From NCBI GenBank assembly GCA_002440765.1, contig DJVC01000024.1, positions 943 to 14,551 of the forward strand: a stretch of 13,609 bases of DNA, read 5' to 3'. Made by a program: the position numbers and the translations under genes. Of this stretch, positions 9 through 12,326 are shown in pieces. Position 1 is the first letter of the stretch. Each line of letters opens with the position of its first letter. Origin of the DNA: a bacterium UBP3_UBA6266 (GTDB lineage Bacteria; Auribacterota; UBA6266). The notes under the pieces are model-generated. The model did not search any database and was not told where the DNA came from. It saw nothing but the letters and a program-made list of their open reading frames with translations.

Positions 9-716
9 ATGGATCCTTTAACATTAGCGGCGATTTTATTGGGCACCGGATCTTTAGGATTGAGTGCTTATGGCATGTTCGGTAAAAAAGAGAAAAAGCC
101 GAAATTTAAAGATGTTGAATTACCGGCGAATCCATATGAACCCGAGATTGCAAAATATGTCAAAGATAAACTTAATCCGGGATATAAGGCGGAAGGTTTA
201 TCGGAGGGGCAATTAAGAGCGTTAATCAATACAAGCACGAGAAGAATTGATGAGGAAGCGGCAAAAAGAGGGAATGCATTAACGGAAAAAGCTAACAGAA
301 TGAGAGTTGGACCATCGTCGTTTTTCTTGAAGAAATATGATGAGGATATTGTCAGGGATACGGAGAGACGGAAAGGTGACAAGGGATCTGATATCAGGAT
401 TAAAAATGCTTTTGATGCGCTGAATAGAACCGAACGCGAGAGGGGGACGGCTTTAAATGCGGCAATAGGAAGTTATGGCGGAAAATTACAAAGAGCATCC
501 GGCCAGAAAGCTTTTGATATGAGCAAGTATATCTCGGACCTTGGGTTATATGAAGGGAGTGAAGCGGCTGGTGGTGCAGCTGCCGGCGCCGGATTAGAAA
601 CATTAATTTCAATGTTAGATATGTTGAACGGTAAAACAGGTGGTGGAATAAGTCGTAAGAGGATAAATCCTGACGCATATACTTTTAATCTCAAAAACAT
701 GCCCAGTTTTATATAA
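9..716 (+). CDS. Putative internal (ejection-type) virion protein, 235 aa
   Basis: I do not recognise a named family. Seen: residues about 4-24 are hydrophobic and small-residue rich (LAAILLGTGSLGLSAYGMFG), followed at once by a strongly basic run (KKEKKPKFK). Most of the remainder is charged and probably helical. A Gly/Ala-rich segment lies near residues 184-195 and the tail is short. The start is well bounded: an in-frame TGA lies at positions 3-5, two codons before the ATG, and a GGTGA ribosome-binding-like motif is at 1-5. Context: it is the first of three adjacent genes before fibre-like genes, the order in which podoviruses such as T7 and P22 place their DNA-ejection proteins. A small protein with an N-terminal hydrophobic segment in that position recalls T7 gp14-type proteins. 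That analogy is by order and shape only, not by sequence. A generic structural protein is the alternative. Confidence 0.6.
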   Translation: MDPLTLAAILLGTGSLGLSAYGMFGKKEKKPKFKDVELPANPYEPEIAKYVKDKLNPGYKAEGLSEGQLRALINTSTRRIDEEAAKRGNALTEKANRMRVGPSSFFLKKYDEDIVRDTERRKGDKGSDIRIKNAFDALNRTERERGTALNAAIGSYGGKLQRASGQKAFDMSKYISDLGLYEGSEAAGGAAAGAGLETLISMLDMLNGKTGGGISRKRINPDAYTFNLKNMPSFI

Positions 717-1547: not shown

Positions 1548-4500
1548 ATGGCGAATGTAAGCGCGCAATCACAGCCCAAGGGGTTATGGAAGATCCTCGA
1601 TTATTTGAATCGCTTAAATTATGCGATTGCCAACCCCGCTAAGAAGATTGTAGATAAAGAGAAGGATACCCCTCTTTCAATACTGAAAGCCTCGTGGCGG
1701 GGCTTATCCGGTCAAGAAAGGACCACATTCAGCGATGTGTTAGGAGAAGCCGGTTGGAATCCTAAGTCTGTTCCCGGAAAGGCTGCCAGGGGTTTGTTAG
1801 GTTTTGCCATGGATGTAGGCCTGGACCCTTTGACTTACATGGGTATCGGGGCATTTACCAAGGCGGGCCAAGCCAGTAAGGTGGCAAAAGGGATCGATGC
1901 AGCCGCAGATGCTGCCCGGGTAGCGCAAAAAACGAAGATTTTAAGAGCCGTGGCCATAGCGAAAAGAGCGAAAAAAACCGGAAATACCGCGATTTTTGAT
2001 AAAGCCATGACTCTTGCGAAGAAGATCCATGCCGGCACCCCGAAGATTATAGATGATATTTACAAGAGTGCAGGGAAATACGAAGCAGTTATACGGAAAG
2101 GTGTTGTTAAGCCCCTGGCAGACACAGCATCAAAACAGGCTGAATTAGGGCAAAGGGCATTAATATCTTTAGCCGGCCGGCCATTAGTTAAGGGTTCAAA
2201 AGCGATAGAAGGTCTGGAAAGGGCCGGAGAAATAATAGGGAAAACCAAGCTGGGCGGCGCGGCAAAAAAAATGTTTATTCCCGGGAAAACAGGGAATAAA
2301 GAGTTGGATGATATCGTCGAGAAAATTTTACCTAAAAAAGGTTTTAAAGAAGAAGAATATTTGGATGTGGCCAGATCATTTAAAGCAGCGATAAACCGCG
2401 TGGCCAAGGAAAGAGGTGTTACCCCGGATGAAATAGGGAAAACAATCTCGCAAAAAGTAGAGTTGGCAAAAGAAACGGGTAATAGTTTGTCGAGAAGGTT
2501 TAGATATCAATCAGCTGCAAAAGAGCACGTAGAAGACTTAAAAAAAATATTTGACGGCATTAAATCTGATATTGGGATTAAATCCGGAAATATCGTTGAC
2601 GTAAAACATATCTCGACTATAAAAACAAAAATAACAAGGAAGAGAGGAGAAGCAAGAATACTGGCTGATAAACAATTTTCCGGTATGCTTCCAAATTTAA
2701 ACTATGGAACGGAAGACTTGGGCGATATTCTGCGCGGGGTGATTTTCGTGGATAATTTGAGCCAGTCGCCGGCAGTTGTAAAAAAGCTGTCAAAAAAATT
2801 AGAGAAAATGGCGGTTGAGACCTCTCTTGTTGCCCCCAGGGGGAAGTGGGGGTATAGGAATATTCACGTTGATGGCGTATTGCCCGGGGGGCAAAAAGTA
2901 GAGATACAAATCGGGACACCGGATTTTTGGAAGTCGAAACACCGCGCGCATAAGATTTTTGATATATGGAGAGATGTACCCGAGAAAAAATTATCTTTAG
3001 GGGGATTAACTAAGCAATCTGATGATATAAAAAAGTCCCAAGAAATATTTTTAGCGGCAGTTAATAAAGAAGCTAAAAAAATAGGCTATAAAGATTACAG
3101 AGAATTGAGTGACCTGGAAGATAGAATACGATTGGCGGCGTCTGCCGATATAGGTGTTGACGTCCAGAAGAGCTCCAAAGTGCCCAGGGCAGGAACCCAT
3201 TCATCAATATTAGGATCAAACATACAAAAAGCTTCCGCGCCAGTAGTCCCTGGGGGTGGGGAAATCCATTCCCTTAGCAAAACACCTTCTTTGAGTGAAT
3301 ATTCGTATTTAGGCCCTGACATTTCTTCCTCCATTCAAAATATACTATCAAGGGGCGAAAAAGTCAATATTGATGATTTTGCCAAGCACTTCGCGTATGA
3401 GTTTGACAAGATACATAGAGCAGAAACAGGGCTGGGAATAAAAACGGCTAAACTTACCGCTGACATAGGTTATATGCCGCATATCGGCACTCCGGAATAT
3501 GTAAAGTTTACTAATAAAAAGAAAATTTTTGGCAACGCAAAAGTCTGGAGTGATAAACATCCGAACCAGCTCCGCCGGCAGTTAGGAGAAGTAATATTTC
3601 AAGATGATTCCAGAAAAATGATTTACGAGCTTACTCCGGATGAGATCGATAAGGCTGTAAAAAACGGGGCCGAGATCCATATTTATACGTTAGATGAAGC
3701 AAATAAGTGGTCGAGAGCCAAGGGATTTAAGGGAGATGCTTTCTATACTGATCCGGCAATTGCGTATGGAATAAGAGGTGTTAGATCCGCGCGGGCCCAG
3801 GCGGGAGCTGAGTTTATCCAGGAGGTTAAAAAATTCGGCAAGCCGGCAAAAGAAGCCCCGAAAGATTGGAAGGAAATTAATAGTGAGCTTTTAAAAGACC
3901 ATAGTTTCTTAAAGGGTCTGAAATTCGAACCGGAAGTAATAGATGAGATAGAGAGAGTTTATCAAAAAGTTACAGGACTTGAGGAAGTCAACGAGTTTTT
4001 AAAAGTATACGATAAGGTTCTTAACTGGTGGAAAGGCCAGGTGTTAATCAGCCCGGGATACCATTTGAGAAATGTTATCGGAAATGTCTGGAACAATTAT
4101 TTAGCCGGCGTTAAGAATCCTGAAGTTTATAGCCTGGCCGCTAAGATACAAAAAACATATAAAGGCGGGCAGGGGTTAGGCCAGCTGAAATCAATTAAAA
4201 TCGGGCTTCCCGGGGGCAGAACACTTAATAGTGATGCATTGATAACAAAAGCCCGGCAGTTGGACGTTATAGGGAGCGGTTGGTATGCCGCTGATATCCC
4301 AACCGCGATTGAAGAAGGAATAAGAAAAGGAACGTTAAAACCGTGGAAACAGAATAACTGGCTGTTTGTAGGCAACAAAAAGGTTGGGACATATCTCGAA
4401 AATCAGGGCCGGTTGGCTCATTTTATAGACCGTATCCGGAAAGGGGATTCTTTTGAAGACGCTGCTAAATCGGTAAAAAAGTATTTATTTGATTATCAGA

Positions 4501-5279
4501 ATCTTACTGAAACGGAGCGAAGGATTTTTAAGAGAATTATGCCGTTTTATACGTGGACCCGGAAGAATGTGCCTCTGCAATTAGAACATCTTTTAAAAGA
4601 ACCCGGGAAATATACCGCAATTTATAAGGCGAAAACCAATTTTGAAAAACAGCAGGAAGGTGTGCCGGATGAAACGTGGATGAGCGAATGGATGAAAGAA
4701 AATGCTCCTGTCAGAATCCGGAAAGGGAAGGACGGAAATTGGCAATATTTTCTGTTGGATAGGTGGTTGCCGGCTGCGGATATAGTGAAAATTGCTGCCG
4801 GGCAAGAATCAATAGTGGGATTGTTGAGTCCCGCAATTAAAATGCCGTATGAGCATATGACAAATAAAGATCTTTATTTTGGCCAGGAGATAGAAAGATA
4901 TGCCGGAGAAACAGGGTCGTATTTAGGGTTGAAGCTGCCTAAAAAAATTATTCACTGGCTTAGAACGATAAGAATTTTAAACGATTTGAATAAACTGAAT
5001 CCTTTTAATGTTTTCGGGACTAAGGAAAAGATAAGCATCTTTGGTAATTTGCCCAAAGGTGTTGTGCAGATGCCAGGGAAAGAACGTACTGCCGGCTATT
5101 TATTGGGTGGTAAATTATACCCTTATGATGTGGAAAAAGGGAAGCGGTGGGCTGAATACAGAAAAAGAAAAGATATTTCTAAGCTTAAAGCCGCGTTGAA
5201 GAAGGCAATAAAAGAGGGGCGGAAAGAAGAAGCCAGGAAGATATTAATGTTAATTGATAAGAGGAGGAAATCTGTATGA
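1548..5279 (+). CDS. Large polyvalent-type phage protein with RelA/SpoT-like domain, 1243 aa
   Basis: This is probably a virion protein delivered into the host with the DNA, judged from its size, multidomain make-up and place before the fibre genes. Seen, in order: an N-terminal segment with GLLGFAMDVGLDPLTYMGIG (residues 82-101), a mildly hydrophobic signature; long Lys/Ala-rich helices to about 330; and a RelA/SpoT-like region at about 355-480 (D393-I-L-R396, GYRNIH at 435-440, EIQIGT at 452-457, H468). A linker to about 610 leads into a block with GYMPHIGTPEY. Next is LISPGYHLRNVIGN (833-846), then FDYQNLTETER near 981 and PFYTWTRKN at 999-1007. The end is a basic helix. The last three motifs resemble the conserved C-terminal region of large polyvalent phage proteins. 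The gene ends in an ATGA overlap with the next one. The phage assignment is firm. The activity of the RelA-like part is inferred from motifs. Confidence 0.75.
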   Translation: MANVSAQSQPKGLWKILDYLNRLNYAIANPAKKIVDKEKDTPLSILKASWRGLSGQERTTFSDVLGEAGWNPKSVPGKAARGLLGFAMDVGLDPLTYMGIGAFTKAGQASKVAKGIDAAADAARVAQKTKILRAVAIAKRAKKTGNTAIFDKAMTLAKKIHAGTPKIIDDIYKSAGKYEAVIRKGVVKPLADTASKQAELGQRALISLAGRPLVKGSKAIEGLERAGEIIGKTKLGGAAKKMFIPGKTGNKELDDIVEKILPKKGFKEEEYLDVARSFKAAINRVAKERGVTPDEIGKTISQKVELAKETGNSLSRRFRYQSAAKEHVEDLKKIFDGIKSDIGIKSGNIVDVKHISTIKTKITRKRGEARILADKQFSGMLPNLNYGTEDLGDILRGVIFVDNLSQSPAVVKKLSKKLEKMAVETSLVAPRGKWGYRNIHVDGVLPGGQKVEIQIGTPDFWKSKHRAHKIFDIWRDVPEKKLSLGGLTKQSDDIKKSQEIFLAAVNKEAKKIGYKDYRELSDLEDRIRLAASADIGVDVQKSSKVPRAGTHSSILGSNIQKASAPVVPGGGEIHSLSKTPSLSEYSYLGPDISSSIQNILSRGEKVNIDDFAKHFAYEFDKIHRAETGLGIKTAKLTADIGYMPHIGTPEYVKFTNKKKIFGNAKVWSDKHPNQLRRQLGEVIFQDDSRKMIYELTPDEIDKAVKNGAEIHIYTLDEANKWSRAKGFKGDAFYTDPAIAYGIRGVRSARAQAGAEFIQEVKKFGKPAKEAPKDWKEINSELLKDHSFLKGLKFEPEVIDEIERVYQKVTGLEEVNEFLKVYDKVLNWWKGQVLISPGYHLRNVIGNVWNNYLAGVKNPEVYSLAAKIQKTYKGGQGLGQLKSIKIGLPGGRTLNSDALITKARQLDVIGSGWYAADIPTAIEEGIRKGTLKPWKQNNWLFVGNKKVGTYLENQGRLAHFIDRIRKGDSFEDAAKSVKKYLFDYQNLTETERRIFKRIMPFYTWTRKNVPLQLEHLLKEPGKYTAIYKAKTNFEKQQEGVPDETWMSEWMKENAPVRIRKGKDGNWQYFLLDRWLPAADIVKIAAGQESIVGLLSPAIKMPYEHMTNKDLYFGQEIERYAGETGSYLGLKLPKKIIHWLRTIRILNDLNKLNPFNVFGTKEKISIFGNLPKGVVQMPGKERTAGYLLGGKLYPYDVEKGKRWAEYRKRKDISKLKAALKKAIKEGRKEEARKILMLIDKRRKSV
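2610..2987 (+). other. RelA/SpoT-like nucleotidyltransferase domain inside the 1243-aa protein
   Basis: RelA/SpoT synthetase domains transfer pyrophosphate from ATP to GDP/GTP, or in some toxic small synthetases to tRNA or to adenine nucleotides. Seen here: a Lys/Arg-rich segment (IKTKITRKRGEA); then DILRGVIFVDN, matching the D-x-x-G-x-R-type strand that carries a metal-binding Asp; then GKWGYRNIHVDG, matching the G-Y-x-S-x-H signature; then KVEIQIGT, matching V-E-x-Q-I-R-T with the catalytic Glu; then a His (H468) ahead of FDIW, matching the trailing H-x-x-Y region. The candidate Asp393 and Glu452 are 59 residues apart, the spacing I remember for D264/E323 of streptococcal Rel. Oddities: the usual R in the final motif is G456 (EIQIG), and the D-Y-I segment before the GYR motif is absent. 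It could be active with altered specificity, or inactive. No hydrolase (HD) domain is seen. Confidence 0.6.
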
Positions 5280-5742: not shown

Positions 5743-7509
5743 ATGAGAAAGATTTTAATACTGATCTTATTGCTTCTTGTTACCCCGACATTCGCGCTGA
5801 GCCAGAATTTTTTTGAGCGATGGGGTGAAAGTCAAGGGTATATATATCCTCTCGGGAACAAGAAAGTTTTGATCGGGGACCTTTCCGGGAATTATATCGT
5901 TATAGACCAGAATGTAATCAGTCGCGGCGGAAACGACTTGCTTAAATTTACTACGAGCTACATTCAAATGCCGTATGGAATGATAGTCGGCGCCGAAGCG
6001 TATAACAATATGATAGACGACAGCGTTCACGGGACCGGCTCCACAACGTTATATATCGGGAATAAAGCAATAGCAGTTGACGGTTCAAGCCCGACATTTG
6101 CTAATTGTTTTCTTACGGGGAATCTAAGTATTAAGCCTGCCGGCGCTGTTGGAGATAGCTCGTATGTTGATTTTACTGACGGTCGCGCAAGCGTGGGTTA
6201 TGACGGGGTGAATGGGATAGCGTATTTAAGAGCCGGCGGCGACAAGTCAATAGCATTTTTCGTCAATAATAGCGATACCTCAGCCGGTTGTTTTGAAACA
6301 GACGGCGATTTCGTAATTAAAAACGGGCAGATTCATGTCGAAGACGATTTATCGGTGAAATATTATGATGTTGAGATTGTAAATTGTAATTATAACGATG
6401 TCTACATGTGTTCTTGGGGAGATACGGATTTCAATTTGTTTTATAACAGTGCAAGCGGAGAAAATAAAGAGTTTAGTTTTTATGGATATATTACCGCTGC
6501 AAGCAGTCAAAAAAGAGGCTATATAAAGGTTGATGATAGCGACGACTATATCCATATGGCAAGGGAAGATAGCAATATTTTAGGGTTAAAGGTTGATATG
6601 CCTTTGGTGTTGGGAACAGATACAATTGTTCATACGGGAACATCTGATTTTTATACCGAGCGCTTTAAAAACGATGCTGATACAGGGTGGTATTGGGATA
6701 ATACCACGAGCAGATTAATATTCGGTTATGACGGTAATTCAATTTTAGAGGTGACAGACATTACCGCGTATGTGCCTAACGGAATTGCAATTAGCGCCTA
6801 CGACGGAAATAACGTTATAAGTTCAAGTTCTTTCGGCGGTGGAGGATCAACAACCCTATATATTGGAGATTACACCATTGACGTTACCAATCCGTCCGAC
6901 GAGAGATGTAAAGAAAACATTCAATTAACCAGATATGGGTTACCTGAAATCCTGGCTTTAAATGTTGTGGATTATAACTATAAAGCGGCAATGTTAAATG
7001 ACACTTCCACGCAGACAGGATTAATAGCACAGGAAGTTGAAAAAGTAATACCCGAGGCGGTAGCTATAAGAACATTCGGAGTTAAAGAGGTTGAGATTTC
7101 AAAGGAAGAAGCTGTCGGGAAAACTGTTAAAAGCTTAAAAGGTGGATATACGCAGGTTGAGGATAAGTACTTCAAAAAAGTTATAAAGATAGAAGAACAA
7201 GAAAAGTTTATTGAGGTTGAGAAGGTTGTCGAGATAGAGCCAGGCAAACATGAAAAAATACCTATCACAATATCAAAAGTAGTCAAAAAGAAAACCTATT
7301 CCGACGTTGAAGTTTCGGAAGATGAAGCTACAACAACACACACCTTTTTGAAAGATAAATGTTTTGAGAAAGACGGTAAATATTACCGGAAAGAGCCGGA
7401 ATATACCGACTTTAAGCAGGTTGATTATAAAAAGCTTGTGCCTGTGCTTATAAAAGCGGTCCAAGAGCTATCGTCGGAAGTTGAAGCGCTAAAAGCACAA
7501 AAGGAGTAA
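5743..7509 (+). CDS. Fibre-like protein with signal peptide and C-terminal S74 chaperone, 588 aa
   Basis: Probably a phage tail fibre or spike, or a trimeric surface adhesin. Seen: a Sec-like signal peptide at residues 1-18 (cleavage likely after TFA), then NFFERWGESQGYIYP, shared with the next gene. A long beta-rich repeat-like body follows (to about 383) with the motif STTLYIG at residues 100 and 369. From residue 385 comes SDERCKENI, the hallmark of the S74 intramolecular chaperone, with GLIAQEVEKVIPEA after it and a terminal coiled coil VDYKKLVPVLIKAVQELSSEVEALKAQ (560-586). S74 domains trimerise the upstream beta structure and then cleave themselves at a Ser-Asp bond, here predicted at S385-D386. 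Odd: about 118 highly charged residues (442-559) interrupt the chaperone, and a signal peptide is unusual on a phage fibre. The start has a strong GGGGGTGA site. Confidence 0.75.
   Translation: MRKILILILLLLVTPTFALSQNFFERWGESQGYIYPLGNKKVLIGDLSGNYIVIDQNVISRGGNDLLKFTTSYIQMPYGMIVGAEAYNNMIDDSVHGTGSTTLYIGNKAIAVDGSSPTFANCFLTGNLSIKPAGAVGDSSYVDFTDGRASVGYDGVNGIAYLRAGGDKSIAFFVNNSDTSAGCFETDGDFVIKNGQIHVEDDLSVKYYDVEIVNCNYNDVYMCSWGDTDFNLFYNSASGENKEFSFYGYITAASSQKRGYIKVDDSDDYIHMAREDSNILGLKVDMPLVLGTDTIVHTGTSDFYTERFKNDADTGWYWDNTTSRLIFGYDGNSILEVTDITAYVPNGIAISAYDGNNVISSSSFGGGGSTTLYIGDYTIDVTNPSDERCKENIQLTRYGLPEILALNVVDYNYKAAMLNDTSTQTGLIAQEVEKVIPEAVAIRTFGVKEVEISKEEAVGKTVKSLKGGYTQVEDKYFKKVIKIEEQEKFIEVEKVVEIEPGKHEKIPITISKVVKKKTYSDVEVSEDEATTTHTFLKDKCFEKDGKYYRKEPEYTDFKQVDYKKLVPVLIKAVQELSSEVEALKAQKE
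6889..7509 (+). other. Peptidase_S74 intramolecular chaperone domain with large insertion
   Basis: The domain runs from about residue 383 to 588. The conserved S-D at 385-386, the K-E-N-I segment, the L-x-L-x-V-V-D-Y-N-Y strand, the G-L-I-A-Q-E-V helix and the terminal coiled coil are all present in the family order. In endosialidase-type fibres the Ser-Asp bond is the self-cleavage site and the released domain is the chaperone. Between IPEAVAIR and VDYKKL the usual short loop is replaced by roughly 118 residues rich in Glu and Lys, with Tyr/Val strands such as YFKKVIKIEEQEKF and HEKIPITISKVVKKK. Confidence 0.75.
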
Positions 7510-10727: not shown

Positions 10728-11510
10728 ATGTTTAAACTCGGCGCGAGATTAGGGTTAAGAGATCCCCGGAACTTAAGGTTTGGAAATTATATTAAAACCA
10801 AGAGGATACTTCCAGAAATACCCCTTAAAATTGATTGGGATAGCGATGTAATGGATAAATATCAAATGTTCGGTAATGATCTGGCCGGAAATTGTGTGTT
10901 TGTGGCCGCGGCAAATCAGATAGTCGGATCGGCTGTTAAGACTGGCGATCCCTGCGATATTACTACAGGGAAGGTGTTAAGAGAGTATTCTGATGTTACA
11001 GGATATGATCCTGAGACTGGGGCAAATGATAGGGGATCATTTCCCGAAGATGTTTTGAGGCACCTCAGCAAAAAGCCTATAGGCGACCCTTTCCGGATTG
11101 AGGCGTGGGGTGAGATAGATATATCAAATCTCGAAGAGATAAGGGCCGGTATGTATTTATTTGGGGGTATATTTACGGCTCTTTATCTCCCTATTACCGC
11201 CCGCGATCAAATCGAAAATGGTGAAGTCTGGCATATAAACCGAAAGACTGCTTTCAGGAAACGGCGTGCCGGATCCTGGGGTGGGCATATGACCATGACC
11301 CGGTTTATGAATAGCTCTGAAAAAGATATTGATATCCGGACTATAACCTGGGCCAGACAACAAAAGATGACTGAAGAGTGGTGGCGGAAGTACTGCGCTG
11401 TCGCGTATTTTTTTATCACTGAAAAGTGGATATCGGATCATACAGGAAAGACCCCTGCGGGATTTGACCTGGAAACGCTTCTTGCGGACGTTGAGGAGTT
11501 GAGGAAGTAA
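10728..11510 (+). CDS. C1-like (papain-type) cysteine peptidase-like phage protein, 260 aa
   Basis: Seen: KIDWDSDVMDKYQMFGNDLAGNCVF, with candidate nucleophile Cys56 preceded by the G-N-D-L-x-G-N segment and followed by VAAANQI, the usual start of the papain central helix. Then REYSDVTGYDP, then a late GSWGGHMTM with candidate His187, then TITWARQQKMTEEWW with W208 near where papain-fold enzymes carry the Asn/Trp pair, and a C-terminal strand YCAVAYFFI. This layout is shared by a group of phage proteins annotated as C1-like peptidases or hypothetical; their targets are unknown. No classical Asn follows the His in an N-S-W motif, so activity needs testing. There is no signal peptide. A good AGGAG site sits directly after the preceding stop. 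It ends the plus-strand late block, followed by a 260-nt gap. Confidence 0.62.
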   Translation: MFKLGARLGLRDPRNLRFGNYIKTKRILPEIPLKIDWDSDVMDKYQMFGNDLAGNCVFVAAANQIVGSAVKTGDPCDITTGKVLREYSDVTGYDPETGANDRGSFPEDVLRHLSKKPIGDPFRIEAWGEIDISNLEEIRAGMYLFGGIFTALYLPITARDQIENGEVWHINRKTAFRKRRAGSWGGHMTMTRFMNSSEKDIDIRTITWARQQKMTEEWWRKYCAVAYFFITEKWISDHTGKTPAGFDLETLLADVEELRK

Positions 11511-11522
11511 ATTACCGGAAGC

Positions 11523-11550
11523 TTGAAATTTTTATGGTAGATGATATAAT
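11523..11550 (+). promoter_or_regulatory. Candidate sigma70-like promoter P1
   Basis: TTGAAA at 11523-11528 and a perfect TATAAT at 11545-11550 are separated by 16 nt. It lies just after the stop of the C1-like peptidase gene and would start transcription near 11557, upstream of the second promoter and the structured RNA. The region is AT-rich, so one chance match is possible. Confidence 0.5.
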
Positions 11551-11580
11551 TAATGTGTTTTTTATACATGAAGATTTTAC

Positions 11581-11608
11581 TTGACAAGGGGTATCGCATA
11601 CGTTTAAT
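11581..11608 (+). promoter_or_regulatory. Candidate sigma70-like promoter P2
   Basis: A perfect TTGACA (11581-11586) and TTTAAT (11603-11608) are separated by 16 nt, predicting a start near 11615. It points at a segment with several hairpins ending in an intrinsic terminator, which supports a real transcript beginning here rather than a chance match. It marks a transcription unit separate from the late block. Confidence 0.6.
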
Positions 11609-11614
11609 GTACAG

Positions 11615-11749
11615 CTGTGGGGGCGCTTTATATAGAAATTATATAGAAAGTGATTAGCCTGTGGGCCAATAATTGTTAGGGGCAACAATGTTGGTGAAAA
11701 GGTTTTAAATACGGGATCGGTCTTTTCGCAAGAAGGACCGTATTTTTTT
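11615..11749 (+). ncRNA. Structured small RNA or leader of unknown class, about 135 nt
   Basis: It starts from P2 and ends at the intrinsic terminator. Seen within it: an AT-rich hairpin CTTTATATA...TATATAGAAAG (about 11625-11650); a strong hairpin at 11666-11694 (CCAA/TTGG and ATTGTT/AACAAT helices around an AGGGGC loop, with a small internal loop); and the terminator hairpin. The heptamer CTGTGGG occurs twice, at 11615-11621 and 11659-11665. I checked it mentally against c-di-GMP, preQ1, fluoride, 6S and SRP RNA patterns and saw no match. It contains no credible ORF. It may be a free small RNA, or an attenuating leader (riboswitch-like) for the PLD-like gene whose ATG is 23 nt after the terminator. 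Ends are approximate. Confidence 0.5.
11707..11749 (+). terminator. Intrinsic terminator before the PLD-like gene
   Basis: AAATACGG (11707-11714) pairs perfectly with CCGTATTT (11738-11745). An inner stem TCTTTTC/GAAGGA closes a GCAA tetraloop, and further T residues run to 11749. An alternative register pairs CGGTC with GACCG. It is strong and lies between the promoters and the downstream ORF, so read-through or regulated antitermination would be needed for P1/P2 to express that ORF. Confidence 0.8.
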
Positions 11750-11771
11750 GAGGCGGATGTTGGAGGTGTTT

Positions 11772-12326
11772 ATGGGTAAAATTGTCGATGTTTACAAGGA
11801 AATGGTGGATAAATATTTGGAGGAAAAGGCTACTGTTGTTTTTGCGAATTCGAATGTAAGTCATGCCTCGTATATTATACAGAGAATGCTTGAATCCGCA
11901 GAGAAAGAAGTGTGTATATTATCAGGTACCTTCAATGACGTTTTTTATCAAGGAGCTGAAGTTAAAAAGGCTTTTCAGGTAGCGGCTAAATCTATTTATA
12001 AAAATGGGGGCTCTATCAGAGTTATTACCGCGGATGAGCCAGATACAAAGGATTTAAGGCAGCTTTTTAAAGAGGTAAATGAAAGTGCTGGTGGCAAGGA
12101 TGTTGTAAAATACATTTCCGCTATTAATGGCGGAAAACCTGAAGATATTCAACATTTCATTGTAGTAGATAAGCTAATGTATAGAGAAGAGGAAAGGCAT
12201 CCTCTTTTAAAAGAGCCTCTCGAGCAGGCTAAAATAAAGGCGGAGGTTTGTTTTAATGCAAAAGAAAAAGCCTCTTTTCTCGCAAGCAGCTTTAATTCTA
12301 TATGGGAGAGATTGAGCGCGCATTGA
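11772..12326 (+). CDS. Degenerate phospholipase D-like protein, 184 aa
   Basis: Seen: an N-terminal helix with a charged start, then ASYIIQRMLESAEKEVCILSG (A-x-x-I-x-x-x-L-x-x-A-x-x-x-V-x-I), the strand-helix entry common in PLD-fold proteins. VAAKSIYKNGGSIRVIT follows, then IQHFIVVDKLMYREE (His128, Asp133, Arg138, Glu139), and AEVCFNAKEKASFLASSFNSIW at the end. The H-x-x-x-x-D segment sits where PLD enzymes have H-x-K-x(4)-D, but the Lys is missing, so it is probably a non-catalytic or altered PLD-like domain. No membrane segment. Start: ATG at 11772 has GGAGGT at 11762-11767; the frame also opens at a TTG inside the terminator and an ATG at 11757, both less likely. It is 1 nt from the next gene. 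PLD-like domains of this kind often act as sensors or binding modules. The family call is tentative. Confidence 0.55.
   Translation: MGKIVDVYKEMVDKYLEEKATVVFANSNVSHASYIIQRMLESAEKEVCILSGTFNDVFYQGAEVKKAFQVAAKSIYKNGGSIRVITADEPDTKDLRQLFKEVNESAGGKDVVKYISAINGGKPEDIQHFIVVDKLMYREEERHPLLKEPLEQAKIKAEVCFNAKEKASFLASSFNSIWERLSAH

Follow-up and report, generated by a model that had tools for sequence, protein, structure and literature searches.

A RelA/SpoT-type synthetase domain at an insertion junction of a phage protein that may be ejected into its host

INTRODUCTION

What would a RelA/SpoT-type synthetase domain do inside a large phage protein? The question is raised by a 13,609-nucleotide stretch of contig DJVC01000024.1 (positions 943 to 14,551 of the forward strand; the whole stretch is called the window here), which belongs to a metagenome-assembled genome (MAG) of 1.84 Mb, 89.7% complete, from the Auribacterota. 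An open reading frame (ORF) of 1243 amino acids (aa) in the window carries the motif series of an alarmone synthetase, and a first-pass annotation made from the sequence letters proposed that a phage might deliver such an enzyme into the cell at infection. In this study, we examined the homology of the domain, the protein family that carries it, its gene neighborhood, and the stringent-response genes of its host group. Homology to the RelA/SpoT domain is established by computation, with the Asp and Glu retained, and the domain lies between two conserved cores of its carrier protein. We favor, at a probability of about 0.5, a reading in which a tailed phage encodes this ORF as a virion protein of the ejection type, with a RelA/SpoT-fold pyrophosphokinase as its cargo; the cargo would be delivered into the host cell and damp host synthesis there.

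RESULTS

Homology of the domain to RelA/SpoT synthetases

The ORF and all of the quoted motifs, D393, GYRNIH, E452, and H468 among them, lie where the first-pass annotation had placed them, and 59 residues separate D393 from E452, as it had counted; we take these two to be the catalytic residues. Its span for the domain, 2610-2987 (residues 355-480), falls inside the domain delimited by alignment, which is wider (Table 1). A Pfam search, which it had suggested, returned RelA_SpoT as the top match of the 1243-aa protein (17 bits, E 0.0073; 21.7 bits, E 2.5e-4 with the trimmed domain), always under the 27-bit cut-off.

Searches with single sequences were weak. The best match of the domain in the PDB reached only E 0.075 (weak matches to HPPK chains were set aside), tblastn against 50,697 phage records matched 6 with a best E of 0.2, and residues 300-520 had no match at E <= 0.01 among 1211 candidates from the protein database. 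Five of the 6 phage records matched in a Sinorhizobium phage gene annotated as RelA/SpoT family protein (E 0.2-0.3). Searches for related loci found none from either the full-length protein or its domain and only Sinorhizobium phage phiN3 with the alignments A4 and A7; two weak matches, L011 (with internal stops) and L012, were set aside. Such figures are what might be expected if the motif series were a coincidence between unrelated proteins. When 11 relatives were combined into a profile, with the window excluded, the 1243-aa protein nevertheless scored 44.3 bits against a maximum of 10.5 bits for 2000 residue shuffles, and this score and the fold search described below rule chance out, leaving it a probability close to nil. 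A group profile that included the window matched YwaC/SAS2 (small alarmone synthetase 2) of Bacillus subtilis at E 1.8e-7, along with other RelA/Rel chains.

The relatives comprise P0122 (phiN3), P0123, and P0124, seven loci (phiN3 among them) found with a DNA pattern encoding E-[IV]-Q-[IV]-x-T-x3-W-x2-K-x2-A-H, and two of three loci found with a profile; the resulting alignment, A10, omits L113 (the same protein as L112) and loci that repeat contigs already included. Against Pfam RelA_SpoT, phiN3, P0123, and P0124 scored 23, 27, and 26.5 bits, and six relatives from IMG/VR scored 42.7, 36.4, 30.5, 27.8, 26.3, and 23.2 bits, four of the six passing the cut-off. Identical in all 12 aligned rows are K353, K361, D393, R396, G435, Y436, E452, Q454, T457, W461, K464, A467, H468, R475, and S497, the conservation of E, Q, T, W, K464, A, and H being partly by construction, as these residues belong to the pattern behind seven rows and Q, T, and W also to that behind two further rows. 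D393, R396, K353, K361, G435, Y436, R475, and S497 are conserved though they lie outside every search pattern. The Asp and the Glu, on whose conservation the first-pass annotation had staked its claim, are thus both invariant, the Glu having been specified in the search behind seven of the rows and the Asp in none. It had also correctly seen Gly456 at the usual Arg position of EIQIRT. None of the 11 relatives has Arg there either (8 have Met and 3 Ala), so in this alignment the absence of Arg is a trait of the subfamily.

Six of the seven pattern loci are on contigs of 90-220 kb or of short, unknown length. Standalone Arg-less RelA/SpoT-like phage proteins (L096-L102, L109, L112, and L113) were seen on contigs of up to 236 kb, and the phiN3 gene lies near genes annotated as methyltransferase and peptidyl-tRNA hydrolase.

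Structure prediction returned the synthetase fold that the first-pass annotation had anticipated: with an AlphaFold2 model of the domain, the fold search was led by RelA/SpoT enzymes, which fill all of the first 29 VIA-align rows (absences from VIA-align were not taken as evidence). A first AlphaFold2 model, made from a four-row alignment in which the N-terminal K-x-x-S motif was misaligned, had a pLDDT (predicted local distance difference test) of 44 and alarmone synthetases as its top Foldseek matches; it is not relied on. Among the predicted viral structures that match the model are seven proteins 981-1321 aa long, of which five are named as uncultured Caudovirales phage proteins, with descriptions such as RelA/SpoT, ART-PolyVal-like, and DdrB-like (ART, ADP-ribosyltransferase).

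The carrier protein family and its insertion site

Scoring of 7997 candidates yielded 372 homologues of ORF residues 780-1220 at E <= 1e-3; 120 of the 372 were listed, those listed being 734-2081 aa in length, and 80 of 259 family loci from IMG/VR were kept. By blastp, the 120 listed homologues share two conserved cores (residues ~46-305 and ~626-1240) with the ORF, and between them is a trough at residues 401-500 that ~3-6 of the 120 cover. The spacer between the cores, 324 aa in the window, has a median of 28 aa in the 71 of 120 homologues in which it could be placed and exceeds 150 aa in 20 of these 71, reaching 1074 aa. Among the ORFs of the IMG/VR loci, 31 of 83 could be placed, with a median spacer of 14 aa and 4 above 150 aa. 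The core ends behind these lengths were extrapolated from blastp ends and are rough, 49 of the 120 homologues and 52 of the 83 locus ORFs being unplaceable.

Of the 120 listed homologues, 82 were scanned with Pfam at E <= 0.01: two have ART-PolyVal, three a putative metallopeptidase (DUF6782; weak), one LPD1 (weak), and none RelA_SpoT. The ART-PolyVal matches, in P0067 and P0068, score 26.0 and 29.5 bits, under the cut-off of 31.2, and the database's precomputed table lists the domain for both; looking past Pfam for further ART-like cargo brought no firm match. In one homologue, P0036 (1492 aa), the relatives' profile detected a second, divergent Rel-like domain at residues 534-647, with 11.9 bits, an i-E of 8.3e-4 for the 120 sequences, and an E of 0.0066 for the whole sequence in a larger set. 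This domain lies at the same junction of the cores, within a 536-aa insert, and its motifs are DLLRYT, GYKHIA, HELQII, and GHMAY. For this domain, Pfam gave no match, the PDB search nothing relevant, and a viral scan no relatives, and a motif regular expression applied to the listed 120 turned up no genuine second carrier, though the profile does. Because spacer sizes and the Rel-like, ART-PolyVal, metallopeptidase, and LPD1 matches differ among relatives, the domain of the window sits at a junction that has received several kinds of inserted sequence. Disparate enzymatic domains are thus swapped within one large phage protein family, which is the mark of a polyvalent protein.

Three further family members were seen in passing. 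A 1093-aa homologue in the same-phylum genome G020 (L009:2249-5530) has an insert that by eye resembles an ADP-ribosyltransferase (R...STS...E), with no Pfam match at E <= 1. A 2290-aa relative (L067:8374-15243) has a C-terminal SLT transglycosylase domain above cut-off and a Phage_L5_gp82 match below it. A 2275-aa frame (L044:4214-11038) has ~1500 residues between the cores, with no clear Pfam domain.

The domain might instead be catalytically dead or a passenger, retained for a structural role or because its loss has yet to occur. Its divergent sequence, Gly456 in place of Arg, and the lack of the domain in nearly all relatives examined would fit such a history. Against it, the Asp, Glu, Tyr, His, and N-terminal Lys are all kept in a stop-free frame, and the 11 relatives equally lack the Arg; we regard a dead or passenger domain as doubtful.

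Gene neighborhood and probable virion location

The C-terminal core matches PHROG 19395 ("tail fiber protein; host specificity") at residues 953-1067 (E 3e-14) and PDB entry 9k3a, "Tail protein" (E 2e-5; E 5e-8 with the family profile), for which no publication was found under the code 9K3A; weak matches to PHROG 37685 and 27387 (E 0.007 and 0.018) were set aside. In the window the ORF (1548-5279) is followed by a 150-aa ORF without a family and then by the tail-fiber-like gene at 5743. At the related locus L018, four of six upstream genes match minor-tail, tail-fiber-assembly, or tail families and two match none, and an endolysin gene lies downstream; two neighbor proteins from this locus had no tblastn match in the phage collection. 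The homologue in Microbacterium phage Shocker, gp37 (22.8% identity, E 3e-7), is preceded by a gene annotated as tail tube protein and four hypothetical genes, the first of which is structural according to PHROG, and is followed by two endolysin genes. This gene order and make-up resemble those of T7 gp14-gp16. From gene order and family matches we infer that the protein is probably located in the virion.

The coordinates of the ORF, its parts, and the tail-fiber-like gene are collected in Table 1.

Table 1. Coordinates in the window of the 1243-aa ORF, its parts and motif residues, and a tail-fiber-like gene
Feature	Position	Strand	Basis
Phage-family ORF, 1243 aa	1548..5279	+	ORF list; family membership from homologue search
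N-terminal conserved core, residues ~46-305	1683..2462	+	blastp of ORF against 120 homologues
RelA/SpoT-type synthetase domain, residues ~322-511	2511..3080	+	alignment, profiles, AlphaFold2, fold searches
K353 in VKHISTIKTK; aligned relatives have K-[PS]-x-x-S here	2604..2606	+	identical in 12/12 rows
D393 in DILRG, aligned with the Asp of B. subtilis SAS2 (IHDIAG of 6fgk)	2724..2726	+	12/12 rows
G435-Y436 of GYRNIH (435-440)	2850..2855	+	identical in 12/12 rows
E452 in VEIQIG, aligned with the Glu of SAS2 EIQIRT	2901..2903	+	12/12 rows; in search pattern for seven
H468 of AHK	2949..2951	+	identical in 12/12 rows; in search pattern for seven
Ser/Gly/Pro/Ala/Thr-rich linker, residues 515-600	3090..3347	+	42% against 31% across whole protein
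C-terminal conserved core, residues ~626-1240	3423..5267	+	blastp against 120 homologues; PHROG 19395 and PDB 9k3a matches
Tail-fiber-like gene with Peptidase_S74 chaperone domain	5743..7509	+	Pfam E 6.5e-14; PHROG tail fiber E 1.4e-19

A minus-strand ORF of 79 aa (3095-3334) lies antisense within the linker. We considered a small mobile minus-strand gene at 3076-3368 and set it aside: the wobble positions of both frames coincide, which makes substitutions uninformative, and the region is kept as linker. Farther along the window, a 260-aa ORF at 10728-11510 matches PHROG 19005 (unknown function) over its full length (E 4e-29), and a 192-aa ORF at 11748-12326 has a weak DUF7931 match below cut-off (E 7.6e-4).

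The host and its stringent-response genes

Contig C10 (JAQUNG010000010.1) of the same-genus MAG G002 carries a remnant with a broken frame that matches window 3076-3368 at 82% identity, and its ORFs were read as including tol-pal-type genes. A remnant of the phage gene in a genome of the same genus supports infection of this genus by such phages, unless the end of the contig is a misassembly. At that end (L008:9902-10789) the remnant stands beside a CRISPR array of six repeats (28-29-bp type, 61-nt period). Its five spacers had no match on the window's contig (best 12-14 mismatches of 32) and give no host link.

Of 44 genomes from the phylum, 7 have RelA_SpoT above cut-off and 3 have the hydrolase domain HD_4 above cut-off; in 14 control genomes, the same searches found them in 11 and 10, respectively. 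Searches of the four host-family genomes, G000-G003, found no RelA_SpoT domain apart from that of the phage, and no HD_4 domain. Verrucomicrobiota account for 13 of the 14 top-listed non-self loci for the TolB-like protein of G002, at 30-40% identity, counting Limisphaerales and Pedosphaera, which we take to belong to Verrucomicrobiota. A 2011 survey reports the Planctomycetes-Verrucomicrobia-Chlamydiae (PVC) superphylum as lacking Rel (PMC3153485). Because of the genome counts, the Verrucomicrobiota affinity, and the PVC survey, the host group is probably without a stringent response, a placement from one protein being thin and the MAGs incomplete. In another genome of the phylum, a minus-strand open frame of 6192 aa (L206, G005:C61:32001-52000, at ~11001-11999) has HD_4 (27.6 bits) adjoining RelA_SpoT (43.7 bits), a pair like that of RelA/SpoT homologues (RSH) inside a giant protein.

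DISCUSSION

In the reading that we favor, the RelA/SpoT-fold domain would be cargo at a recombination site between two conserved cores. The scaffold protein would enter the cell together with the phage DNA and bring the domain along. Inside, the domain would take pyrophosphate from ATP and attach it to a nucleotide at the 3'-OH or to a tRNA at the 3' end, and host RNA or protein synthesis would be damped early in infection.

Several results weigh against this proposal. The window domain, at 17-21.7 bits, stays under the curated Pfam cut-off of 27 bits for RelA_SpoT (PF04607), and its structural model was built from an alignment of Rel-like sequences and is partly dependent on them. A Rel-like domain is present in only 1 of the 120 homologues and in no other family ORF of the 80 IMG/VR loci. 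The direct matches of the scaffold carry tail-protein names only and cover ~100 residues; set beside T7 gp16-like ejection proteins, the family offers these matches and the SLT domain of a single relative. Neither upstream ORF of the window (9-716 and 729-1538) has a named family in Pfam or PHROG, and the same is true of the immediate upstream neighbors L018:7484-9004, L022:8322-9626, and Shocker gp36. The idea of an ejection-type protein, first put forward in the first-pass annotation, is compatible with gene order and with the family-wide insertion site but, given these neighbors, falls short of proof. The last of these results also suit an explanation in which the protein is not carried into a new host, being made during infection and acting or assembling only in the producing cell: on that account virion location rests on gene order, and nothing clearly marks the standalone relatives of large phages as virion proteins. 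The position of family members between structural and lysis genes, the tail-protein family matches, and the one SLT domain argue the other way, and we consider confinement to the producing cell unlikely.

The cargo proposal takes an unexpected turn in this host. A phage of this kind may inject an alarmone-type pyrophosphokinase into a lineage lacking any native stringent-response enzyme, where the alarmone would be purely a weapon; this extension is speculative and, in our estimate, improbable. It is equally a long shot that the product would act as a foreign signal that the host can neither make nor remove. The host angle is nonetheless the part that a specialist would least expect. If the enzyme is active, a virion-delivered pyrophosphokinase would confront a host group mostly without (p)ppGpp enzymes, by the genomes searched, which raises the question of what such a nucleotide does in cells unable to make or clear it. 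In short, this virus may inject a ready-made enzyme that slows growth.

The closest sequence relatives of the window domain are the RelA/SpoT family protein of Sinorhizobium phages phiN3, phiM12, and phiM19 and its IMG/VR relatives. They share with it K-x-x-S, D-x-x-R, GY, and E-x-Q-x-x-T-x3-W-x2-K-x2-A-H and the absence of Arg at the EIQIRT position, but they are standalone proteins of ~210-350 aa, unfused to a virion-type protein. From RelP/SAS2 and RelQ/SAS1, the window domain differs in its ~20% identity, in having no EIQIRT Arg, and in being embedded in a phage protein.

A second comparison is with the MuF toxin Apk2, which has been shown to make (p)ppApp (PMC12226406). Both have a synthetase-fold domain on a phage protein, that of Apk2 being thought to reside in the head. 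The Apk2 domain is C-terminal on MuF and comes with immunity genes, whereas the window domain is internal; Pfam found no MuF match in the 1243-aa protein at E <= 1 and recognized no immunity gene among the ten window ORFs scanned. At three motif sites, as we map them, the window domain, Apk2, and RSH enzymes read RGV, RYT, and AVR; N-I-H, GxN, and SxH; and IG, YH, and IR, so that the window domain is a mixture, and the DLLRYT of P0036 falls where Apk2 toxins show RYT. Apk2 has YH at the EIQIRT Arg site, and Arg there does not define the superfamily. In the same account, swapping these motifs left specificity unchanged (PMC12226406). The acceptor may be GTP, ATP, or tRNA, and the motif mixture gives no assignment. 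One tentative alternative, less probable than the favored reading and still one to be taken seriously, is that the domain is an enzyme of the toxic-SAS type, not a (p)ppGpp synthetase, and that its product is (p)ppApp or pyrophosphorylated tRNA; the cell would then be arrested through depletion of ATP or a block in translation.

Phage-carried RelA/SpoT domains as such are not new. The first-pass annotation's idea of them is supported here and had been published in 2017, when Iyer et al. described such domains both in the polyvalent proteins of phages and in MuF fusions (PMC5512222). A search of PMC for literature pairing "internal virion protein" with "alarmone" found none. The kind of protein is thus already known, and what the window adds is a scaffold family unrecognized by Pfam: a further family of phage proteins by which an alarmone-type enzyme may enter cells, with an insertion site at which Rel-like and ART domains occur in different relatives. 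The relevant passages of Iyer et al. name Spirochaete and epsilonproteobacterial (pro)phages, and the scaffold here, in contrast, has no Pfam family at cut-off; in both cases, a domain of the same superfamily lies inside a large, supposedly injected phage protein and alternates with ART domains (PMC5512222).
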